From Corynebacterium riegelii (GTDB lineage: Bacteria > Actinomycetota > Actinomycetes > Mycobacteriales > Mycobacteriaceae), in the NCBI RefSeq assembly GCF_016728505.1, contig NZ_CP068159.1:496001-560000 (forward strand): 64,000 nt of DNA. Reading direction: 5' to 3'. This document shows positions 3,161 through 48,141 of this stretch, piece after piece (position 1 is the first letter of the stretch; every line of letters begins with the position of its first letter). Under the pieces are notes generated by a model. It was not told the origin of the DNA. It did no database searches and was given only the letters and a program-made list of their open reading frames with translations. Made by a program: the position numbers and the translations under genes.

Positions 3161-3832
3161 CTACAGCACGCCCATCTCGCGGGCGGACGCCACCGCGGAG
3201 GTGCGGGAGCGCACACCCAACTTGTCGTAGATATGCACAAGGTGGCTTTTCACCGTGGCCTCCGACAACATGAGCTCCGCGCCGATCTCGCGGTTGGATG
3301 AGCCGGCGGCCACCAGCTGCAGTACCTCCAGCTCACGCGGGGTGAGTGAGGAGCGCGGGGTGCGCTCACGCGTAGCCAGCTTGTCGCGCACGGTTGGTGA
3401 CATCGGCACCGCCTCACCGGCGGCGCCATCCGCAACGCTTTCATCCATGCCCGCCACGGATCGGACGGCGGCGAGGAGTTCTTCCGGCGGGGCGTCTTTC
3501 AGCATGTAGCCCACCGCACCGGCCTCGATGGCGCCGAGGATGTCAGCGTCCGTGTCGTAATTGGTCACCACCAGCACCTTTGGCGGGTTGGTCATGGAGC
3601 TGCGGATGGCGGCGGTGGCTTGCGCCCCCGTCATCACGCGGGTGCCCTGGGGGCCAGCGCCGAAACGCAGGTCCATCAGGATTACGTCAATGCCCCCGGC
3701 CTGAGCCGTGGCAATTGCGCCTTCCGCGGTGGCTACCTCACCAACCACCATGATGTCGTCTGCCTGCTCCAACACAGAGCGCAGGCCAAGGCGCACAATC
3801 TCATGATCATCAGCCAGTAACACGCGAATCAT
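3161..3832 (-). CDS. NarL/FixJ-family response regulator
   Basis: The 223-residue DNA-binding response regulator is the partner of the histidine kinase encoded immediately upstream (17 bp gap, same strand). The receiver domain covers residues 1-120, with the acidic pair ADD at 7-9, phospho-acceptor Asp54 in LMDLRFG, and the conserved Lys in LKDAPPEE. A LuxR-type helix-turn-helix occupies the C-terminus: LTPRELEVLQL, then SNREIGAEL and ATVKSHLVHIYDKLGV. Regulon unknown; the divergent lipoprotein gene beyond the kinase is the nearest candidate target. Confidence 0.9.
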   Translation of the reverse strand: MIRVLLADDHEIVRLGLRSVLEQADDIMVVGEVATAEGAIATAQAGGIDVILMDLRFGAGPQGTRVMTGAQATAAIRSSMTNPPKVLVVTNYDTDADILGAIEAGAVGYMLKDAPPEELLAAVRSVAGMDESVADGAAGEAVPMSPTVRDKLATRERTPRSSLTPRELEVLQLVAAGSSNREIGAELMLSEATVKSHLVHIYDKLGVRSRTSAVASAREMGVL

Positions 3833-3849
3833 GCCATCATCCTAACTGT

Positions 3850-5085
3850 CTAGTCCGAACTATCTACAGCACCGTCCACAGGCACCGCCACGGAGATTGC
3901 CGTCGGCCCGCCCGGCGCGGACTCAATGGTCAGCTCCCCGCCAAGCTCCGCGGCGCGCGAACGCATCGCATCCAACCCCAGGTGGCCAAGACCTGCGGGT
4001 TTGCCGGCTTGCGCTGCAACGTCAAAGCCCACGCCGTTATCCACAACGTCCAGGCGGATCTCCTCAGGCTCGTGCGTAAGTGTTACCCGCACGCGGCTCG
4101 CCCCCGAATGCTGCACGGCATTCGACACCGCGCCTTGGGCGATGCGCAGCAGCCCAGCCTCCACACGCATGGGCAGTTTCTGCGGCTCACCGTGGGTTTC
4201 CACCTGGATATCCATGTCGCTGGCATGCGCAAAGTCCGCGGCAATCCGCTCCAGAGCTTCGCTTATCGACGCTTCGCGCAACCCCGCCGGCGTCAACGCC
4301 GCAATCATCGCGCGAGTCTCCGCCAAGTTGTTAGACGCCGCCCGGCGTGCCGCCTCCATCCGGCGCAGCGGCTGTTCAAGCTCTTCTTCAGCCACGTCAA
4401 GGTTGCCCAAGTCCCGCTCGGCGGCGTGCAGCAACATTTGGATAGAGGACAAGTTCTGCGCCACCGTGTCATGAATCTCGTGCGCCAAGCGTTCGCGCTC
4501 CTGCGCCACACCTGCTTCGCGTTCGGACTCGGCGAGTTGTTCGCGGGTGGACAGTAGCTCGTCGATAAGCAGAAGCCTCTCGCGGCTCACCCTGCCGATG
4601 GTGGTGAATGCATAGTTGATTGCCACCACCACAACGGCGGACAGGGCCGGGCCCATAATGCCGCCGAGGGTGAGCCCGGTGGGGATCTGGAAGATGATGG
4701 CAATGGCCAGGTCAATGGCCACAAACAGCAAACCCCGCCAATCATTAAACGCACGCAGGGAAACAAAGAACAGCAGAAACACCCAGTAGATGGCCACCGG
4801 CGAGATGGTCATGTCTGAAATCCACACCGCCGTGACCGCACTGAGCCACACCAGCTTGCCCAACGTGCCCCACCGCGGCATCTCCACCATGCCGTAGAAC
4901 AACAGGAACGAAAACGCGGTGACCAGCACAATGTGCAGCAACGCCTCATTCAGCGGCATCCGAGCAAGCGCGAGCAGGGACACCAGCACCAAACTCACAG
5001 CCAAGACGGTCACGCCGGAGTCAATAGCTTTGTTGTCTGGGATGTCTGCGGGGTCCCGCTCCAACATCACTAGTCTGGAGCTCAT
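3850..5085 (-). CDS. Sensor histidine kinase (HisKA_3 type)
   Basis: A 411-residue membrane kinase that should phosphorylate the adjacent NarL-type regulator. About five or six hydrophobic segments lie in residues 22-160. The HisKA_3 dimerisation domain has phospho-acceptor His205 in AHEIHD, and the HATPase_c domain has DNGVGFD and the glycine-rich GLGHLGL box. The start at ATG 5085 is preferred over the extended frame and over ATG 5067: a -10-like TAGTCT sits exactly 7 bases upstream on the minus strand, consistent with a leaderless mRNA, while no Shine-Dalgarno precedes either ATG. With this start the codon overlaps the lipoprotein start on the other strand (CATG at 5083-5086). Signal unknown. 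Confidence 0.88.
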   Translation of the reverse strand: MSSRLVMLERDPADIPDNKAIDSGVTVLAVSLVLVSLLALARMPLNEALLHIVLVTAFSFLLFYGMVEMPRWGTLGKLVWLSAVTAVWISDMTISPVAIYWVFLLFFVSLRAFNDWRGLLFVAIDLAIAIIFQIPTGLTLGGIMGPALSAVVVVAINYAFTTIGRVSRERLLLIDELLSTREQLAESEREAGVAQERERLAHEIHDTVAQNLSSIQMLLHAAERDLGNLDVAEEELEQPLRRMEAARRAASNNLAETRAMIAALTPAGLREASISEALERIAADFAHASDMDIQVETHGEPQKLPMRVEAGLLRIAQGAVSNAVQHSGASRVRVTLTHEPEEIRLDVVDNGVGFDVAAQAGKPAGLGHLGLDAMRSRAAELGGELTIESAPGGPTAISVAVPVDGAVDSSD

Positions 5086-6856: not shown

Positions 6857-7753
6857 TCATCTTTCAGTCATGGCGGCGGGCAGCGCACCCTCGCCGTCTG
6901 GGGTTTTCGGCACCGCCTCCGTCTTCACCGCGTGGATGATCATGCGCTCCTTGTTGGAGAACTGCGGGTGGCACGTGGTCAGCGTCAAGATGGACTCCAT
7001 GCCCGGCATAACTTCCGTCGACGGGGTTTCCGGCATGGGGTTGACCACGTTGATGTCGTTCGGCAGCGTGATGTGCCGTCCAAGCACTGAGGCATAGTCG
7101 CCGGTTGCTATGCGTTCGTTGAGGTCGGGTGGGAGGCACGTGGACGTCGATAAGCGACGAAGCTCCGCATCCCCCTCCATCGGCAGCACCCGGTAGGTGA
7201 CCCACTGAGTCTGGGTCTCAACCACAATTGCGTCGCAGGCATTGAGCTGGCCCAAGTCATTGAACGGCGCGCCTTTGCCCACGCGGTGGCCGGCCACGGC
7301 GAAGTTGCCGGGCTCACCAGGCATCTGCGTGCCGGGGTAGCGGCCAGGGCCGGCGAGCAGCGCTGTCGGGTCCACACCCTCAATGATGGCGAAGCGGTAA
7401 TCCGGGCCAAAGGAGGGAATGTACATGCGGGCAAAGGCGTCACCCTCCGCAGGCGCGTGGACGGAGCGGGGGTTAACCCAGTTTTCCTCCCATACCTCTT
7501 CAAGCCGTGACTGCGCCTCATTCTGCATCTTGCCGGAGGCGATGTTGGTCCAAAACGACTCATAGAACGCAAAGAGCAACAGCACCGCGCCAATGGTCAG
7601 CAGCACCTCACCAATAATCTGGCCAGGGGTGACGCGCGCAGGTTTGCGTGCCTTGTTACCGGAGTTCTTCCCCAGGTTCTCGCTCAAGTTCTCACCCGGC
7701 CAAAACGGTTGGGGTGCCCCGCCCATTGCCGCTCCCGTGGTTGCCGATTGCAT
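6857..7753 (-). CDS. Class E sortase
   Basis: A 298-residue membrane-anchored transpeptidase that should attach surface proteins to the cell wall. One N-terminal transmembrane helix (about 46-64) is followed by the sortase beta-barrel. The catalytic residues are visible as His156 in AGHR, Cys261 in TLTTCHPQ and Arg270 in NKERMII. The TLTTCHPQFSNKER signature is typical of class E enzymes, which in Streptomyces are known to accept LAxTG signals; the surface protein at 40446-43592 ends in LASTG. Start at ATG 7753, 6 bases after a minus-strand TAATGT, suggests a leaderless mRNA. It is divergent from the yidC-like gene with only 18 bp between start codons. Confidence 0.9.
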   Translation of the reverse strand: MQSATTGAAMGGAPQPFWPGENLSENLGKNSGNKARKPARVTPGQIIGEVLLTIGAVLLLFAFYESFWTNIASGKMQNEAQSRLEEVWEENWVNPRSVHAPAEGDAFARMYIPSFGPDYRFAIIEGVDPTALLAGPGRYPGTQMPGEPGNFAVAGHRVGKGAPFNDLGQLNACDAIVVETQTQWVTYRVLPMEGDAELRRLSTSTCLPPDLNERIATGDYASVLGRHITLPNDINVVNPMPETPSTEVMPGMESILTLTTCHPQFSNKERMIIHAVKTEAVPKTPDGEGALPAAMTER

Positions 7754-7757
7754 GGCC

Positions 7758-7765
7758 TAACATTA
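7758..7765. promoter_or_regulatory. Overlapping divergent -10 boxes (srtE-like / yidC-like)
   Basis: Plus-strand TAACAT (7758-7763) is 8 bases before ATG 7772, and minus-strand TAATGT (7765-7760) is 6 bases before ATG 7753. The two -10 boxes share four base pairs. Only 18 bp separate the start codons, so both messages would be leaderless and polymerase binding would be mutually exclusive. Confidence 0.45.
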
Positions 7766-7771
7766 ACGCAC

Positions 7772-8896
7772 ATGCTGGAAATGCTCGTGTACCCGGTGTC
7801 TGCCGTGATGAAGTTCTGGCACTGGCTGCTGGCCGGATTGCTTGGCGCGGACTCCAACGCCGCCTGGGTTGCCTCGGTGTTTCTGCTAGTGATCTCCGTA
7901 CGCTCGCTGATTTTGCCGTTTGCGTGGCAGACAATTGCCAGCACGCGGCGCGCCTTCCTCATGCGTGCACACTTGGAGGAGGTGCAGCGCAAGTACGGCG
8001 AGTCCACCGATGTGGAGGACCTGCGTGCGGAGCAAGACGCGCGCAAGCAGATCCAAAAAGACCACGGCTATAACCCGCTCGCCGGGTGTGTGCCGGTGTT
8101 TGTCCAGGTGCCGGTGTTTCTTGGCCTGTATCGGCTGCTGCAGTGGATGTCCGTTCCGGATGCGTCCGCGGGCCGTAAGATCGGCGTGCTTTCAGACGCG
8201 GAAATCGCCTCCTTCCGCGACACCACCTTCTTCCACGTGCCCTTGTCTGCCTATGTGTCTATGGATGAGGCACAGTTCGCCTTCCTTGGCACCACCCAAG
8301 AGGCCACGCTGAAGGTGGCGTTGCCGTTTGTCATCATGGCCGCGGTGTTTACCTCCGGAAACCTGCTGATCAACCAGGCACGCAACCGCACGATGTTGGA
8401 GTGGGCGAACACCTTCACGCGCCGCAGCTACTACTTTTTGTACTGGTTCGTGCCGTTCGTCGCCGTGATGCTGCTGCTCTCCGGCTTGACTGGCCCGGTG
8501 CCGATCGCGCTGCTGATGTACTGGGTGGGCAACAACCTGTTCACCACCGTGCAGACGGTCGCGCTGTGGGCGTTGGCCGTTCGCACAATGCCGGCCTCCG
8601 ACATTCACTTTGAGGCCCAGGCCGCGGCGCGTGAGAAGTACCGCACGCAGCGCGCCGAGGTCAAGGAGCATAAGTCTGCTTTATTGCGCCTCCGCGCATC
8701 CACCCTCACCACCCCCACCCAAGCCGGCCGCATCCACCGCGAAATTCGCGACGCTAAACGGGCGCGCAAGCAAGAAAAACGCGAGGAGAAACAGCGGAAG
8801 AAAACGCTGGAGAGCGAGCGCTCAGCGGCCAGGCGCGAACTTGCGCTGCTGCGTAAGAAGGAACGCGAAGAGCAAAAAGCCAGCGAGCAGGACTAG
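7772..8896 (+). CDS. YidC/Oxa1-family membrane protein insertase (paralogue)
   Basis: A 374-residue inner-membrane insertase that helps fold membrane proteins with or without SecYEG. Five hydrophobic segments match the YidC core, including the conserved positively charged residue of the hydrophilic groove in SVRSLILPF (TM1) and the amphipathic cytosolic hairpin that follows (EEVQRKYGES...RKQIQKDHGYNPLAGC). The C-terminal 90 residues form a highly basic Lys/Arg/Glu tail, common in ribosome-binding YidC versions. No lipobox is present, so this is probably a second paralogue rather than the housekeeping copy linked to rnpA. ATG 7772 was chosen over the upstream extension because of the -10 box 8 bases before it. 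The stop overlaps the convergent tetR stop by 4 bp (CTAG). Confidence 0.82.
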   Translation: MLEMLVYPVSAVMKFWHWLLAGLLGADSNAAWVASVFLLVISVRSLILPFAWQTIASTRRAFLMRAHLEEVQRKYGESTDVEDLRAEQDARKQIQKDHGYNPLAGCVPVFVQVPVFLGLYRLLQWMSVPDASAGRKIGVLSDAEIASFRDTTFFHVPLSAYVSMDEAQFAFLGTTQEATLKVALPFVIMAAVFTSGNLLINQARNRTMLEWANTFTRRSYYFLYWFVPFVAVMLLLSGLTGPVPIALLMYWVGNNLFTTVQTVALWALAVRTMPASDIHFEAQAAAREKYRTQRAEVKEHKSALLRLRASTLTTPTQAGRIHREIRDAKRARKQEKREEKQRKKTLESERSAARRELALLRKKEREEQKASEQD

Positions 8897-40445: not shown

Positions 40446-43400
40446 TCATCGACGACGCCGTGTGATGAGCGCTCCGCCGGCCATGAGACACAGCATCGCA
40501 ATGGCTACGGGAAGCATGACGCTCGCACCGGTTGAAGCGAGGCTGCCACCGCTACCGCCACCGCCCACTGACGCTGCCTGCGCAGTTATGGACTGGGTGG
40601 TTGCCGACTGTGCACTTGTGCGCTGGGTTGTCGTGGACTGGGTTGTTGACCTGGTTGTTGTGGGCTTGGTGGTTGTGGACTGGGTGGATGTCTTGGGGGT
40701 TGTTGAGGATGTTGTTGGCTGGGTTGGCTGGGTTGGCTTGGTTGTGCCCGACGGGGAAGGCGAAGGCACTGGGGAACTGGGCACTGGGGAGCTGGGCGCT
40801 GGGGAGCCCGGCGCGGGCTCAGGCTCAGTAGTGGCGTTGCCGACCAGGTATGTGATTGTGGACCACTCGGTGACGGCTTTGCCCTGCGGATCAACCGCAC
40901 GCATGTCCATGGTGTACGTGCCGGGTTTGGTGAACACCCAGTCGGCATGGATGTGGAAGGGGCCCTCGCTCACGCCGGAAATGGTGTGCGTTCCGGTGGA
41001 GCTGGCCAGTGTGCGTTCCGGAACCCCGAGGGAGGGAATGTGCCCGGCCCACCATGCGCCGCCCTTCGGGGTGGAGCGTGGGCGGACTTCCACATTGACG
41101 CCGGCTGGGTACTGCTCGGCGACTCGGAACGTATCCCAGCCAGGCCAGATACTGTCACGGTCCTGCATGAGTGGGAGGTGGTAAATGCTCGCACCACGCT
41201 CAACGATGCCGGTAAAGGAAAGCGCATCCGCAATAGAGTCGGTAGCTGTCACCTTGCGGTTGTCCTTCACGCGCAGGACCACGGTTTCGGGGACGTGGTG
41301 TTGGTCGTCTTCGTTGATGAGGAGGTGCGGGGTGGCGTCGATAAGCTTGGGCCCAAAATCGATGTGACCTGTGGTGATCTCCTTGATGGTGTCCGGCTTG
41401 GCATCGGGGGCGACGACAAAACGCAGCACTTCCTGCTGGGATGGCGTGCCACCCTTCTCCGCAACCCACACGCCGATCTCGTACGTGCCCGGTTTTCTGA
41501 ACGCCCACGAAACATGCATGTGCTCCGGGCCTTCAGTGGTGTACGCGCGGGTGGAATCGCTGCCGGCCAGGCGGTCTTGCGGGGAGGTTTGGTTGCCGCG
41601 GAACGCGATCCACTTGCCGCCCTCCGGCGCGCTGAGCGGAGTGAAGGTGAACGTGTAATCCTTCTTCGTTTGCGCGTATGCGTGCTCACTGCTCAGTCCG
41701 GGCCAAACCACGCCTGACCGTTGGGTTTCCGGGAGGATGTAGGCAGTGGCGCCTTTCTCGGCGAAACCCTCGATGCTCTCGGGCAGGGTCGTGCTCACCT
41801 GGGAGGGGACGGTGAAGTAGACGTCGTTGGGACGTCGCCACACGGCGCCGCGCTGGTGGAGGTTCGTCTCATCCTTGATGCGCAGGTGGAGCACGTCGTT
41901 GTCGTAGTACGGCGCGATGTCAACGTGCCCGGAGCTCAAGTTCAGGGCCTGGCCCTCGGAGGGGACAGGCTCGGAGGGGACCGACGGCGCAGACTCGGAA
42001 GGAGCGGGCTCCGAGGGCGCAGTAGGAGCGGACGGCACAGGCTCGGACGGCTCCGTTGGCTGCGAGGAAGGCACCTCGCTCTCCCCGCCCCCACCGCTGA
42101 GGCGCACTGTCGTTCCCGGGATCGGGGCGTACGCATCGGTGTGGGGAACGCTGACAAGGGCGGCGTCCGCAGCGTTAGACCGAGACTCCGGGATGAGGCG
42201 GAGGAGGAGTTGGTAGTTGGGGCGTTGGCAGCCGTCGATAAGCTGCTTGCTCTTCCTGCTGTCTGGGGCGGAGGTGAAGTCGACCTCGCAGTCGGCGATG
42301 GCGTCGCGCGGCATGGTGGTCAGTGGGCCGTTATCCATTCTGTAGAAACCGCCGGTGACGCGCAGTGTTGTGCGGGGGTCGGCGGGTTCGACGGTGATGT
42401 CGATGTTGCGCATGTCTTCGCCGTAGACCGCGGAGGTGCTCACGGTGACATCGGGGCTGGTGAGCGTCAGGGGGTCAGTGTCGAACGCCGGGATGGGCTC
42501 CATGCTTGGCGACGGCAAAACCCCCGCACCGTCCCTAGTCGCAGTTTTGGCGTCGCCGGTGCGGAAGCGCAGCGGTGCAGACGCCCAGCGTGGCGTGGGC
42601 GAAGATGTGCTGGGAAGGTAGACGGCTTGGAGGTCGGAGGTGTCGTCGCCGAGCATCTCATCCCACGTGGCGGTGCCGCCGGTAACTTCGCGCTCGGCGA
42701 GGTAGAAGCCGTTGATGAAGAACTGGACGTGGCCGGTGTCGTTGGGGTTGCCGGTGTCAAAAGTCAGCGTGCTCAGCACGCCTTGCTCCGCGCCTTTCGT
42801 CGACGCGATGGAAGGCGCAATGCTGAATGTCGGGGTGCCGGTGCCGATGCTCGGCGCGGCATTATACGCTGCAACGATGTCCGTGATCGTGCGCTGGGCA
42901 GGATCCGTGCCGCCTACCTGCCAGGTCAGCGCTTGGGGCGCGGAGTGGATAAAAGAACCGTCCTTCATCCGCGCGGTTGCCCGGTAGGTGACTTGGTAGA
43001 GGCCGGGGCGTGTGAACGTCGTGGAGTTGTGAGTGTGGGTGCCGGCGTTGACCCAGGTTGAGCGGAATCCCGGGTCATGGGAGGACCACAGGCGCGTTAG
43101 CGGATAGGTCTCATCGCTGTAGTTGAACAGCTCCATCTTGCCCGGGCCGGAAAAACCAACGATTTCCATGTTGAAGGACTCCGCCCGGAATTGATCCGTG
43201 GGCAGATCCGCAGCCGCACCGAAGCCGGCCCAGATGGGCATGGTGTTTTTGGGGAAGCCGTGGGCGGGTCCTCCGAAGTACATGAGGTGGCCCGGTTCGA
43301 CGCCGAGGAAGCTAAAGCGTGGGTCATCGGGAACCCGCCAGGCGTAGGCGCCAAGCCCGCCATCGGTGCGCCCGCGGCTGACCCAGTTCACGGTGTTTTC

Positions 43401-43592
43401 AATTGGGACGAGCCCGGCGCTGTTGGACATGAGCCGGAAGTTGCCGTCCTCCCACACCGCGTGGGGAGAATCCACGTGCGTTTGTGTGCGCACTATTTTG
43501 CCGTCGGTGGTTGCGGACTCGGCGAGGGCCAGAGGCGCGCCGATGAACAAGAGGGTCAGAGTGGCGACAAGCGCCGGGAAACGTGTGCGCAA
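40446..43592 (-). CDS. Choice-of-anchor-M surface protein with LASTG sorting signal
   Basis: A 1048-residue exported wall protein. The signal peptide ends near LALAES (about residue 24). At least three related domains have the actinobacterial surface-anchored repeat pattern: an opening G-HVDI or G-HIDFGP, later H-x-H-x-W (HMHVSWAFRKPGTYEI, HIHADWVFTKPGTYTM). Ser/Pro/Glu and Thr/Ser/Pro linkers separate them. The C-terminus has LASTG, a hydrophobic span and RRRR. Histidine-rich repeats of this kind are known beside zinc or manganese ABC importers, and a Zur-box-like palindrome precedes the gene, so zinc capture is a fair inference. Start is TTG 43592 with GGGAG about nine bases upstream. No transporter genes are adjacent. 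Confidence 0.82.
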   Translation of the reverse strand: MRTRFPALVATLTLLFIGAPLALAESATTDGKIVRTQTHVDSPHAVWEDGNFRLMSNSAGLVPIENTVNWVSRGRTDGGLGAYAWRVPDDPRFSFLGVEPGHLMYFGGPAHGFPKNTMPIWAGFGAAADLPTDQFRAESFNMEIVGFSGPGKMELFNYSDETYPLTRLWSSHDPGFRSTWVNAGTHTHNSTTFTRPGLYQVTYRATARMKDGSFIHSAPQALTWQVGGTDPAQRTITDIVAAYNAAPSIGTGTPTFSIAPSIASTKGAEQGVLSTLTFDTGNPNDTGHVQFFINGFYLAEREVTGGTATWDEMLGDDTSDLQAVYLPSTSSPTPRWASAPLRFRTGDAKTATRDGAGVLPSPSMEPIPAFDTDPLTLTSPDVTVSTSAVYGEDMRNIDITVEPADPRTTLRVTGGFYRMDNGPLTTMPRDAIADCEVDFTSAPDSRKSKQLIDGCQRPNYQLLLRLIPESRSNAADAALVSVPHTDAYAPIPGTTVRLSGGGGESEVPSSQPTEPSEPVPSAPTAPSEPAPSESAPSVPSEPVPSEGQALNLSSGHVDIAPYYDNDVLHLRIKDETNLHQRGAVWRRPNDVYFTVPSQVSTTLPESIEGFAEKGATAYILPETQRSGVVWPGLSSEHAYAQTKKDYTFTFTPLSAPEGGKWIAFRGNQTSPQDRLAGSDSTRAYTTEGPEHMHVSWAFRKPGTYEIGVWVAEKGGTPSQQEVLRFVVAPDAKPDTIKEITTGHIDFGPKLIDATPHLLINEDDQHHVPETVVLRVKDNRKVTATDSIADALSFTGIVERGASIYHLPLMQDRDSIWPGWDTFRVAEQYPAGVNVEVRPRSTPKGGAWWAGHIPSLGVPERTLASSTGTHTISGVSEGPFHIHADWVFTKPGTYTMDMRAVDPQGKAVTEWSTITYLVGNATTEPEPAPGSPAPSSPVPSSPVPSPSPSGTTKPTQPTQPTTSSTTPKTSTQSTTTKPTTTRSTTQSTTTQRTSAQSATTQSITAQAASVGGGGSGGSLASTGASVMLPVAIAMLCLMAGGALITRRRR

Positions 43593-45177: not shown

Positions 45178-45399
45178 ATAGGTCAAGCCGTAGGCAATAT
45201 ACGGTTCCCGTGCGGTAGCACTAGGTGGTTGGTTTTTTAAGCATGGATCTAAGGATGTGACTGTTACCATCAGGTGTTTGTTCGGGAGGGGATGAGAAGA
45301 TCCTGGTTGGGTGCAGGTGTGTTCGTTACACTGCAGATTTAGTTTGTTTTGAAGCGTCCTGGGTTTAGTTCCTACCTCTGCTAAGGAAGGATTGGCACT

Positions 45400-45720
45400 A
45401 TGCCCAGAAAGTATTCCGTCGAATTCAGGCAGAAGGCGGTTCATCAAGTCGTTGAGATGATTCGTTTGGAGTCTTGCTCACTGCAACGTGCCTACACCGA
45501 GGTCGGCGAGCTCCTTGGAGTATCTCACCACACGTTGCGGGCTTGGTACCGTGACAGTGCTTCAGTACGCGATGATTCTGACGCTTCAGGCGGCGAGACC
45601 ATGGAAGAAGAACTCAAGCGTCTGCGCCGCGAAAACCGTGAGCTAAAACGAGCAAACGGGATTCTTAAGACTGCTTCGGCTTTTTTCGCAGCGGAACTCG
45701 ACCGACCCACGACCAAATGA
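45400..45720 (+). CDS. IS3-family transposase OrfA
   Basis: A 106-residue DNA-binding half of the IS3 transposase. A helix-turn-helix (KYSVEFRQKAVHQVVEM ... LGVSHHTLRAWY) is followed by a leucine-zipper-type helix (EELKRLRRENRELKRANGIL). The stop overlaps the orfB start by 4 bp (ATGA at 45717-45720), consistent with translational coupling or programmed frameshifting to make OrfAB. The frame is intact. Confidence 0.9.
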   Translation: MPRKYSVEFRQKAVHQVVEMIRLESCSLQRAYTEVGELLGVSHHTLRAWYRDSASVRDDSDASGGETMEEELKRLRRENRELKRANGILKTASAFFAAELDRPTTK

Positions 45721-46626
45721 TCGCCTACATCGACGCGCACAAAGATCAGTTTGGGGTCGAGGCCATCTGCCGTGTTTTGAAACAGGCAGATCGTGGATTC
45801 ATCACTTCTCGCGGCTACCGTAAAGCCACTACTCGTGTCCCGAGTGCGAGAGCGTTAAGCGATAGTCTGCTTATCCCAGAGATTCAACGCGTGCATGCGG
45901 AAAACTTCTCGGTCTATGGCATCCGCAAGATGTGGCACGCGATGAACCGTGAAGGCTTTCATATCGGCCGAGATAAGACTGCACGTTTGATGAAGCTTGC
46001 AGGTGTTTCTGGTCGACGACGTGGACGAATCCCGATAACTACGATCAGTGCGAAGACACCGGATCATCGCCCGGACTTGGTCGAGCGAAACTTTCGTGCA
46101 ACAGCACCTGGACGGCTTTGGGTGGCCGACATTACCTACGTTCGCACCCTGTCAGGGTTTGCATACACAGCGTTTGTCACTGACGTCTACAGCCGCAAAA
46201 TAGTCGGTGTTGCCACACGCTCTACGATGCGTACCGATGCGCTGCCGATGGAGGCTTTGGAACATGCTTTAACAACTGCTGGTCGAATCCATGGCGATCA
46301 GCTGGTACAACAACAGTGATCGAGGAAGTCAGTACGTGTCGTTGAAATACTCCGCCGCTTTAGCTGAAGCCGGAATCCGGCCGAGTGTTGGCACCGTTGG
46401 CGATTCCTATGACAACGCGCTGGCGGAGACGGTCAACGGTCTCTACAAAGCTGAACTTATCCATGCGCACGGCCCGTGGACGTCGGTCGGCGAAGTCGAG
46501 CTTGCCACCTTGCGATGGGTGCATTGGTGGAACACCAAGCGCCTTCACGAAGCCTTGGACTATGCCACCCCGCAGGAAGTAGAAATCGAGTATTATTTCA
46601 CCGAGCCCATCAACACCGGGCCATAA
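45717..46626 (+). pseudogene. IS3-family transposase OrfB, frameshifted
   Basis: The first part (to 46319) includes ENFSVYGIRKMWHAMNREG and the first catalytic Asp in LWVADITYV. The frame ends at GDQLVQQQ. The rest resumes in another frame from about 46312 with the second Asp in NSDRGSQYVS and the Glu in NALAETVNGLYKAELI. One extra base in the CAACAACAG run (about 46309-46317) breaks the DDE domain where LVHHSDRGS is expected. A programmed shift is unlikely at this position, so the copy is probably inactive. Confidence 0.8.
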
Positions 46627-46698
46627 AAGAAGCGGAACCAAACCCAGGACGCTTCAGTTTTGCGAATAGTGACTCACACAACTTCAATATAAGGAGAA

Positions 46699-47463
46699 AT
46701 GTTGCTACAAGGTCAGAAGTCGATTTCCCTGCAGAAACTCTTTGCATCATTTGTCGCGGTCATTTGTGCGCTGTTTTTCGTAGAAATACCATCTGCAAAC
46801 GCCGAGGAACTTATCAATACCCAATCCATTGATCTTCCTGATGACGTTAGGCAGCATCTTGCTGATGACGTCGAAAAGCAGGAGGTGCTCCGAATCGCAT
46901 TCCCAGGAACTTCGGAACCTGGACTCTCATCTTCTCGCTCTTCTACCGGCTTTTTTAATTTGAATAGTGAAGACCCTCTTTTGGTTGACCCCGAAAACTA
47001 CATTGTAGAAAAGCGTAGTAATGATGTCTTTATCGCTTACAGCGCTGTTAAAGAGGGTGAAGAGAATGTAACTCTCGACATCCGTTCTATCAACCTCACA
47101 ACAGGAACCGTGGAAGAGACTCAGCAGTACTATTTTTCTCCGAATGATGTTACAGGGGAAATGGACGCTAAGGTGGTTGCCGAAGGTGAGACACTTTGGG
47201 AAGGTGCAGTTGATCAGTCCGGAAATATTACCCGTACCCAGTACGAGCAGCCTAGTCTTCAATATGGCACTGCTTATGATGCTTGCATTCGCTCTGTCGA
47301 TTCCTTGTGTGCTGTCGGTGGTAGCACCGGGGGGGCGATCGCCTGTGCGCTTCTAGGAATTACCGGTATTGGAGGTATTGCTTGCGCTGGTGTCGTCGGG
47401 CTTATCGCTATGTTTGGTTGTAATGGTGCCAAAGAGCGCGTTTGCGGGGGTGCAAGGCGTTAA
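46699..47463 (+). CDS. Secreted precursor with halocin-C8-like bacteriocin domain
   Basis: A 254-residue exported precursor. A signal peptide covers about 1-35, ending PSANA. A middle domain (about 36-190) is acidic and beta-rich in appearance. The C-terminal ~60 residues contain six cysteines (196, 204, 216, 229, 241, 249) in a Gly/Ala-rich hydrophobic context with CALLGIT at 216-222. The spacing Cys204-x11-Cys216 followed by LLGIT is the pattern of the archaeal peptide halocin C8 as I recall it, whose precursor also has a long N-terminal part that acts in immunity. AAGGAG precedes the ATG closely. The gene is clearly A+T-richer than the flanks and lies inside a mobile island. Bacteriocin function is inference. 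Confidence 0.65.
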   Translation: MLLQGQKSISLQKLFASFVAVICALFFVEIPSANAEELINTQSIDLPDDVRQHLADDVEKQEVLRIAFPGTSEPGLSSSRSSTGFFNLNSEDPLLVDPENYIVEKRSNDVFIAYSAVKEGEENVTLDIRSINLTTGTVEETQQYYFSPNDVTGEMDAKVVAEGETLWEGAVDQSGNITRTQYEQPSLQYGTAYDACIRSVDSLCAVGGSTGGAIACALLGITGIGGIACAGVVGLIAMFGCNGAKERVCGGARR

Positions 47464-47518: not shown

Positions 47519-47842
47519 ATGAAAGTTTGGCAAACAGCAACGGTCTCACTGCTTTTTGGAGTATTTCTCTACTTCGTAACTTTGGGAGAATTATGGTTTG
47601 CACTCATCCCTGTTCTTCTGCTGGTCTCGTTTATGATCGTGTCCAGGATTCCTTTCAAAGCATCGTCCAAGGCAGAAAGGGCTTCAATCCTCATGATTGC
47701 CGTTCCTTTTCTATTAATCTGGTTAGCGTATTTTAGTCCAGAAGACCTCTTTTACGCTGCGTTGCTAGGTATAGCTAGTGCAGTTCTTCTTTTTGTTCTT
47801 CTTTTTCTTCATGAGAAGAGGTCTATTCAAAACAGTGATTAA
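47519..47842 (+). CDS. Small membrane protein, candidate immunity factor
   Basis: A 107-residue protein with four hydrophobic segments (about 7-22, 25-42, 53-70 and 74-95) and a charged tail HEKRSIQNSD. GGAGGTAAGGA precedes ATG 47519. It lies 55 bp downstream of the halocin-like precursor, on the same strand and with the same low G+C, so the two are probably one transfer unit. Small membrane proteins of this shape often protect producers of bacteriocins; here that is a positional inference. No family is recognised. Confidence 0.6.
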   Translation: MKVWQTATVSLLFGVFLYFVTLGELWFALIPVLLLVSFMIVSRIPFKASSKAERASILMIAVPFLLIWLAYFSPEDLFYAALLGIASAVLLFVLLFLHEKRSIQNSD

Positions 47843-47886: not shown

Positions 47887-48141
47887 GCAGATGTACTGGT
47901 GCTTGATGACTTTCTAACAACGCCGATCGAAGCTGCAACAGCACACCAGCTGCTCAACATTCTTGCTGAGCGCGAACACCGGGGATCAACGATTGTGACT
48001 TCTCAGTTCACACTCGATGAGTGGTAAAAATCCATCCCCGATGCTGTCATCGCTGAGTCGATCCTCAACCGACTTGTCGTTGGCGCTGAGATCATCACGT
48101 TGGAAGGACCGAACATGCGCCTAGAGACCAACACCCAGTAG
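47887..48141 (+). pseudogene. istB (IS21 ATPase helper) 3' fragment
   Basis: The frame DVLVLDDFLTTPIEAATAHQ, then LLNILAEREHRGSTIVTSQF and SIPDAVIAESILNRLVVGAE, is the C-terminal half of IstB, including its Walker B LVLDDF and the STIVTSQ sensor. TAA at 48025-48027 interrupts it and the 5' half with Walker A is missing. It is the right-hand remnant of the split IS21 element. Confidence 0.75.

Follow-up and report, generated by a model that had tools for sequence, protein, structure and literature searches.

The window analysed here is a stretch of 64,000 nucleotides corresponding to positions 496001-560000 (G000:C1) of a 2.52-Mb Corynebacterium riegelii genome. In it, an intact gene for a halocin C8-like domain-containing protein (called the toxin gene below) is followed on the same strand by an ORF for a small membrane protein (its partner), and insertion sequence material lies on both sides of the pair (Table 1). 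The precursor has a probable Sec signal peptide that would be cut at about ANA/EE, a long pro-region and a C-terminal domain with cysteines at positions 196, 204, 216, 229, 241 and 249, residues 36-195 being free of cysteine. An earlier note on this DNA had pointed out a precursor of 254 residues, a six-cysteine C-terminal domain and the pattern C-x11-C-x-LLGIT, all of which were found (the pattern runs from C204 to C216), and the small membrane protein that it placed after the precursor is a real ORF. No twin arginine was seen by eye in the N-terminal 35 residues, so the precursor does not display the Tat export feature of ProC8.

Table 1 Features of the cassette and its borders, in window coordinates
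Feature	Position	Strand	Remarks
IS3-family element	45350-46656	+	23-nt terminal inverted repeats, GTTT on both sides; right end lies 42 nt upstream of the start codon of the precursor
Precursor gene, halocin C8-like domain-containing protein, 254 aa	46699-47463	+	Intact ORF, TIGR04449 match
Probable signal peptide, residues 1-35, ending in ANA	46699-46803	+	By eye from the translation
Pro-region, residues 36-189, without Cys	46804-47265	+	Low-confidence model; alignable in part with relatives
Six-Cys domain at the C-terminus (residues 190-254), presumably the mature peptide	47266-47460	+	TIGR04449, shuffle test, Cys mirror, hairpin model
Seven-G run within the peptide domain	47329-47335	+	Second, damaged copy has six G
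Small membrane protein, 107 aa, proposed immunity protein	47519-47842	+	Starts 55 nt past the toxin stop; homologues open beside damaged toxins
IstB (IS21) remnant just past the cassette	47899-48024	+	Pfam IstB_IS21, 25.4 bits

GC content is 0.481 in the toxin gene and 0.407 in its partner ORF, lower than the 0.613 of the whole window. This low GC fits a transfer of the cassette, as does the insertion sequence debris, in which the second transposase frame of the IS3-family element is broken into two parts; the recent acquisition suggested in the earlier note is one possible form of such a transfer. No defined mobile island, as that note had it, was found around the gene, the surroundings being insertion sequence debris. 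A gene for a 1048-aa probable surface protein (window 40446-43592, minus strand), with weak PKD and Y_Y_Y matches below the cut-off, adjoins this debris.

A halocin C8-like domain at the C-terminus of a secreted bacterial precursor, which the earlier note had suggested, was confirmed by the profile search that it proposed against TIGR04449-type families. The precursor reaches 30.5 bits with TIGR04449 (NCBIfam; curated cut-off 24), residues 194-251 being aligned to model positions 2-65 of 69, and the window locus gives 35 bits in a six-frame search. With a profile made only from the domains of six relatives the window domain scores 31.8 bits, which none of 2000 shuffles reached in each scheme (all residues shuffled, Cys fixed, or Cys and Gly fixed; the best score in the last and strictest of these was 29.5). 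The score above the cut-off and the shuffle result together indicate that the resemblance is real. NF040679 matches the domain region with 27.3 bits, far below its 200-bit whole-protein cut-off and hence without membership in that family, and TIGR04450 (cut-off 27 bits) is absent for the window protein even at E 10, although HMMER filters may hide weak matches. Pfam and PADLOC gave no match for the precursor, and the best PHROGs match has E = 0.16. The pro-region can be aligned in part between relatives, and strands are predicted over residues 84-181 in a whole-precursor model (mean pLDDT 43.6) that is too poor for a fold search. The alignment of the relatives shows no constant Lys or Arg preceding the domain, which a trypsin-like protease would favour for cleavage.

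The cysteines of these domains are spaced as mirror images. Eight cysteines with the spacing 8-8-4-[14]-4-8-8 are present in the genomes G110, G043, G064, G200, G017 and G698, and G939 has 8-8-4-[12]-4-8-8. The spacing in the window and G078 is 8-12-[13]-12-8, i.e. without Cys 3 and 6, and that of the staphylococcal copy L064 is 8-8-[22]-8-8, without Cys 4 and 5. Every loss of cysteines thus takes out one mirror pair, and the symmetry is seen in all ten domains measured (chance of an exact mirror with eight randomly placed cysteines 1.1e-4, the related sequences being taken as one observation). The spacing suggests a helical hairpin with nested disulfides, in which the pairs 1-8, 2-7, 3-6 and 4-5 would be formed across the two arms. 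An AlphaFold2 model of the domain, made from three sequences, has helices at residues 2-30, 40-50 and 52-60 around a loop (mean pLDDT 75.3, pTM 0.55). The structure prediction proposed in the earlier note therefore points to a helical hairpin at moderate confidence. Fold searches with it against PDB and viral folds returned nothing significant, and the lone PDB match, to the NKR-5-3B peptide at E 9, was rejected as evidence. The mirror-symmetric spacing looks new.

Halocin C8-like domains are sparsely distributed in the genus. The precursor search matched 10 of 242 Corynebacterium genomes, the own genome included, and TIGR04449 likewise gave matches in 10/242 at E <= 0.01, seven of them over the cut-off. 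Two matches below the cut-off, in G131 and G011, were rejected as chance after inspection, and the profile misses G197 and G123. In total, 11 loci occur in 10 genomes of the genus, five of type A (the window, a second copy in the same genome, G078, G197 and G134) and six of type B (G110, G043, G064, G200, G017 and G123). Further loci are found in G698 and G939, which belong to the same order, in the viral-collection contig L064 and in three staphylococcal plasmids; the stretch 3855-7371 of L064 is 90-92% identical to staphylococcal phages among the 8 of 37 matches listed. In wider samples, TIGR04449 matched 1/396 genomes of the phylum, namely that of the window, NF040679 matched 4/397 of the order, two of them outside the genus, and alignment A5 matched 3/394 of the class, where the third match, a frame of 35 codons containing a stop (E 0.0017), was put down to chance on the basis of its listing row. 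The class sample gave no new locus and hence no independent test set for the rule that a partner follows the toxin. Neither the whole window protein nor the whole Staphylococcus protein matched any plasmid, and neither the Staphylococcus protein nor its domain matched any phage; a domain-only plasmid search at loose E gave remnants in 15 staphylococcal records, of which one was inspected, and a Streptomyces plasmid match was rejected as sitting within a PLP-enzyme gene. The scans of viral contigs returned L064 only, and the genome contig scan returned one locus, L063.

The window gene belongs to a kind already known, with TIGR04450 and NF040679 as existing NCBIfam families. The first of these, Gpos_C8_like, covers Gram-positive C8-like precursors and G043 lies over its cut-off (29.3 vs 27), but these loci do not point to the fusion of immunity protein and bacteriocin that it proposes. 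In NF040679, whose short name, halocin_of_epi, we take to mean S. epidermidis, L064 has full membership (370.8 bits, cut-off 200), whereas the window has another pro-region and a 107-aa partner rather than a 25-aa microprotein. What is shared with TIGR04449 is a Cys-rich domain that ends an exported precursor, the signal peptide being recognised here by eye; the window differs in that it is bacterial, has six mirror-spaced cysteines and has a membrane-protein gene next to it, the comparison with archaeal members being drawn from the profile and from published descriptions. According to two papers, the HalC8 precursor releases a C-terminal fragment by a protease left unidentified (PMC12893001), and ProC8 is exported by the Tat pathway and matures into the immunity protein HalI and halocin C8 (PMC11509114). 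As in those descriptions (PMC12893001, PMC11509114), the window precursor would be exported and longer than its peptide, which forms the C-terminal part, but HalI is cut from the same Tat-exported precursor, whereas immunity in the window seemingly belongs to a separate membrane protein. Among the papers listed by a literature search that did not extend to bioRxiv and most subscription journals, none deals, to judge by its title or the opening of its abstract, with halocin C8-like loci of Corynebacterium or staphylococci. Halocin-C8 has a single mention in an Exiguobacterium profundum genome paper, in a table that lists peptide names and their counts (PMC8851196). The view that such a locus is not well described in the genus fits these searchable papers, although curated NCBI families for Gram-positive halocin C8-like proteins exist.

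The 107-aa partner is probably a four-helix membrane protein. The toxin stop is followed at all 14 loci, after at most about 110 nt, by the start of an ORF on the same strand, which has 25-141 codons and encodes a strongly hydrophobic stretch. Under fixed criteria (ORF of 25-130 aa, ATG within 110 nt, hydropathy of at least 2.0), set after the loci had been seen, such an ORF follows 14/14 toxin genes vs 10/161 control genes, the controls being other genes of at least 200 codons (Fisher 1e-14, or 4e-11 with 10 lineages counted, as the loci share ancestry). The partner was read as 102-126 aa in the five type A loci and as 52 and 56 aa in G698 and G939, respectively, and type B and L064, i.e. 7 of the 13 other loci, have a single-helix microprotein of 25-36 aa. 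Three invariant columns are common to seven members of the 107-aa family, taken from toxin loci and elsewhere. Among four microproteins of Corynebacterium and Staphylococcus, five of the six pairs beat all 5000 shuffles and one score was reached once; the 107-aa proteins are not established as homologues of the microproteins. With the 107-aa partner as query, all matches in Pfam, NCBIfam and PHROGs are far below cut-off or have E > 0.4 and PADLOC has none, and all NCBIfam matches of the other partners scanned are far below cut-off (best E 0.0046). A partner search in the genus hit 65/242 genomes, mostly at E 0.0003-0.01 and to frames of about 500 codons, and these were not counted as homologues. 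The ORF is missing from the gene table of three staphylococcal plasmid records, the PLSDB table being self-described as incomplete. The constant downstream membrane ORF looks new as well.

Decay has affected the two genes differently. A damaged toxin is found at 6 of the 11 loci in Corynebacterium (second own copy, G078, G197, G134, G017 and G123), the pro-region being broken or missing together with the peptide, and each of these six has kept an open partner. The 107-aa protein also has homologues with no recognisable toxin next to them (e.g. G217, G064 contig 44 and G197 contig 7); some homologues have themselves decayed (a frameshift in G024, a TGA in the extra copy of G017) or probably so (G051 seems to be without helix 1 and G065 is without an ATG start). 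In the three staphylococcal plasmids that were read, the partner ORF is likewise open beside toxin remnants. About the last seven toxin codons are left in those of S. agnetis and S. simulans, where nothing of the pro-region was seen and an intact 25-aa ORF follows, identical in the two and hence counted as one observation; a 55-aa hydrophobic ORF follows the remnant in the S. epidermidis plasmid L066. Compared with L064, 6 of 10 sense-codon base changes in the orphan 25-aa ORF are silent, the expected fraction being 0.164 (P = 0.002). Another S. simulans plasmid record has a listing match to microprotein residues 9-25 only. Loss of the toxin with retention of the partner is the usual signature of immunity genes, and we read the downstream ORF as probably encoding an immunity protein that would protect the producer.

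The second cassette of the same genome (G000:C1 about 1163053-1164068; L062 5718-7068) is 98% identical to the window copy over 683 nt. Its first 167 toxin codons are gone, and six G in place of seven break the frame; slippage at the seven-G run could switch the peptide off. Between the two copies, the partner has 1 change in 324 nt vs 9 substitutions and a frame-breaking deletion in 264 nt of the toxin, although the low divergence of the partner includes silent sites, so that gene conversion could explain it. The second copy also has about 330 nt between the partner and the IstB remnant that are absent from the window, and an ORF that starts in this extra stretch matches the N-terminus of a trypsin-like G043 protease (E 1.6e-9). 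An intact secreted trypsin-like gene lies directly downstream of the type B toxin and microprotein of G200 (L018 6021-6659, minus strand; PF00089, 28.7 bits), and the S1 protease beside the G043 toxin was judged by eye only. The three cassette-side S1 sequences do not align convincingly with one another. With 4-10 S1 matches per genome in the 10 genomes examined, S1 sequences next to 3 of 11 cassettes are expected by chance at 1e-7, a value that assumes a neighbourhood of 700 nt. Because the recognition of remnants was loose, and since only the G200 gene is intact, the S1 protease stays a lead; intact or as a remnant beside two or three cassettes, it may be a candidate maturation protease. Other neighbours were also noticed. 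In L066, a small gene annotated as stage II sporulation protein M converges on the toxin remnant and a YiiX/YebB-like NlpC/P60 hydrolase is carried as well (features at 3717-3962 and 7085-7834), and by eye an NlpC-like sequence lies beside the G043 toxin, for which Pfam gave nothing significant.

We propose, with a probability of roughly 0.7, that the locus is a two-gene bacteriocin cassette made up of a secreted hairpin peptide precursor and a membrane immunity protein, in which we infer killing, processing and immunity from sequence. The first gene would yield a secreted precursor with a signal peptide, a Cys-free pro-region and a C-terminal peptide of 60 residues. This peptide would form a helical hairpin closed by the nested disulfides C196-C249, C204-C241 and C216-C229 (the eight-Cys relatives have another mirror pair, the third, which has been lost here) and, once released by proteolysis outside the cell, would target the membranes of related Gram-positive species. 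The second product, whether the 107-aa protein of the window or the single-helix microprotein of other loci, would confer immunity in the membrane of the producer.

The earlier note had placed immunity in the N-terminal part of the precursor, as reported for halocin C8, which would leave the downstream protein to do something else. The maturation of ProC8 into HalI and halocin C8 speaks for such an arrangement (PMC11509114), as do the NCBI name of TIGR04450 ('putative immunity/bacteriocin fusion bifunctional protein'), over whose cut-off G043 lies, and the alignability of the pro-region between relatives. However, the pro-region decays with the peptide in the damaged copies where the downstream membrane ORF stays open, it was not seen in the two plasmids of staphylococci that carry the 25-aa ORF as an orphan, and TIGR04450 is not listed for the window protein at E 10; the retention of the partner where the toxin is lost speaks against immunity residing in the pro-region, and we consider this arrangement quite improbable. 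The same retention argues against a role that is needed only with the toxin. A second peptide or an export or redox helper, acting as partner for activity, secretion or folding, would agree with an ORF directly downstream on the same strand at 14/14 loci and with the hairpin and T-run seen by eye after the microprotein in the phage-type Staphylococcus copy L064, features that suit the two-gene cassette as well, but should decay with the toxin, whereas the partner stays open even where the toxin is almost gone. Such a role hence seems unlikely.

It is unlikely to a similar degree that the domain is a secreted peptide of non-antagonist role or that the window gene is a silent remnant. Also for the proposed cassette, the position of the IS3 element 42 nt upstream makes expression of the window copy doubtful: the element may separate the gene from its own promoter and leave this copy weakly expressed or silent. 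A simple consensus scan found no sigma-70-type site on the plus strand between 46500 and 47950, and no terminator-like site was found in that interval; the missing promoter site and the damage to 6 of 11 copies in the genus would also suit such a remnant. Against this stand the intact 254-codon frame, the curated kinship with the halocin domain and the pattern in which the toxin decays and the partner stays.

For the wider group, we lean, with less assurance than for the two-gene bacteriocin cassette itself, towards a bipartite system common to Corynebacterium, other members of the Mycobacteriales and staphylococci. It would combine a disulfide-laddered hairpin with a dedicated immunity protein of down to 25 residues that annotation is prone to miss, the orphan resistance gene persisting on plasmids and chromosomes, and an S1 maturation protease may adjoin two or three of the loci. 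Should immunity indeed lie in the downstream ORF, the bacterial branch would have solved self-protection differently from halocin C8 and very compactly. Orphan resistance among genera living together on skin would then be accounted for, and mirror cysteines followed by a downstream membrane ORF would serve as a search rule for more such peptides.
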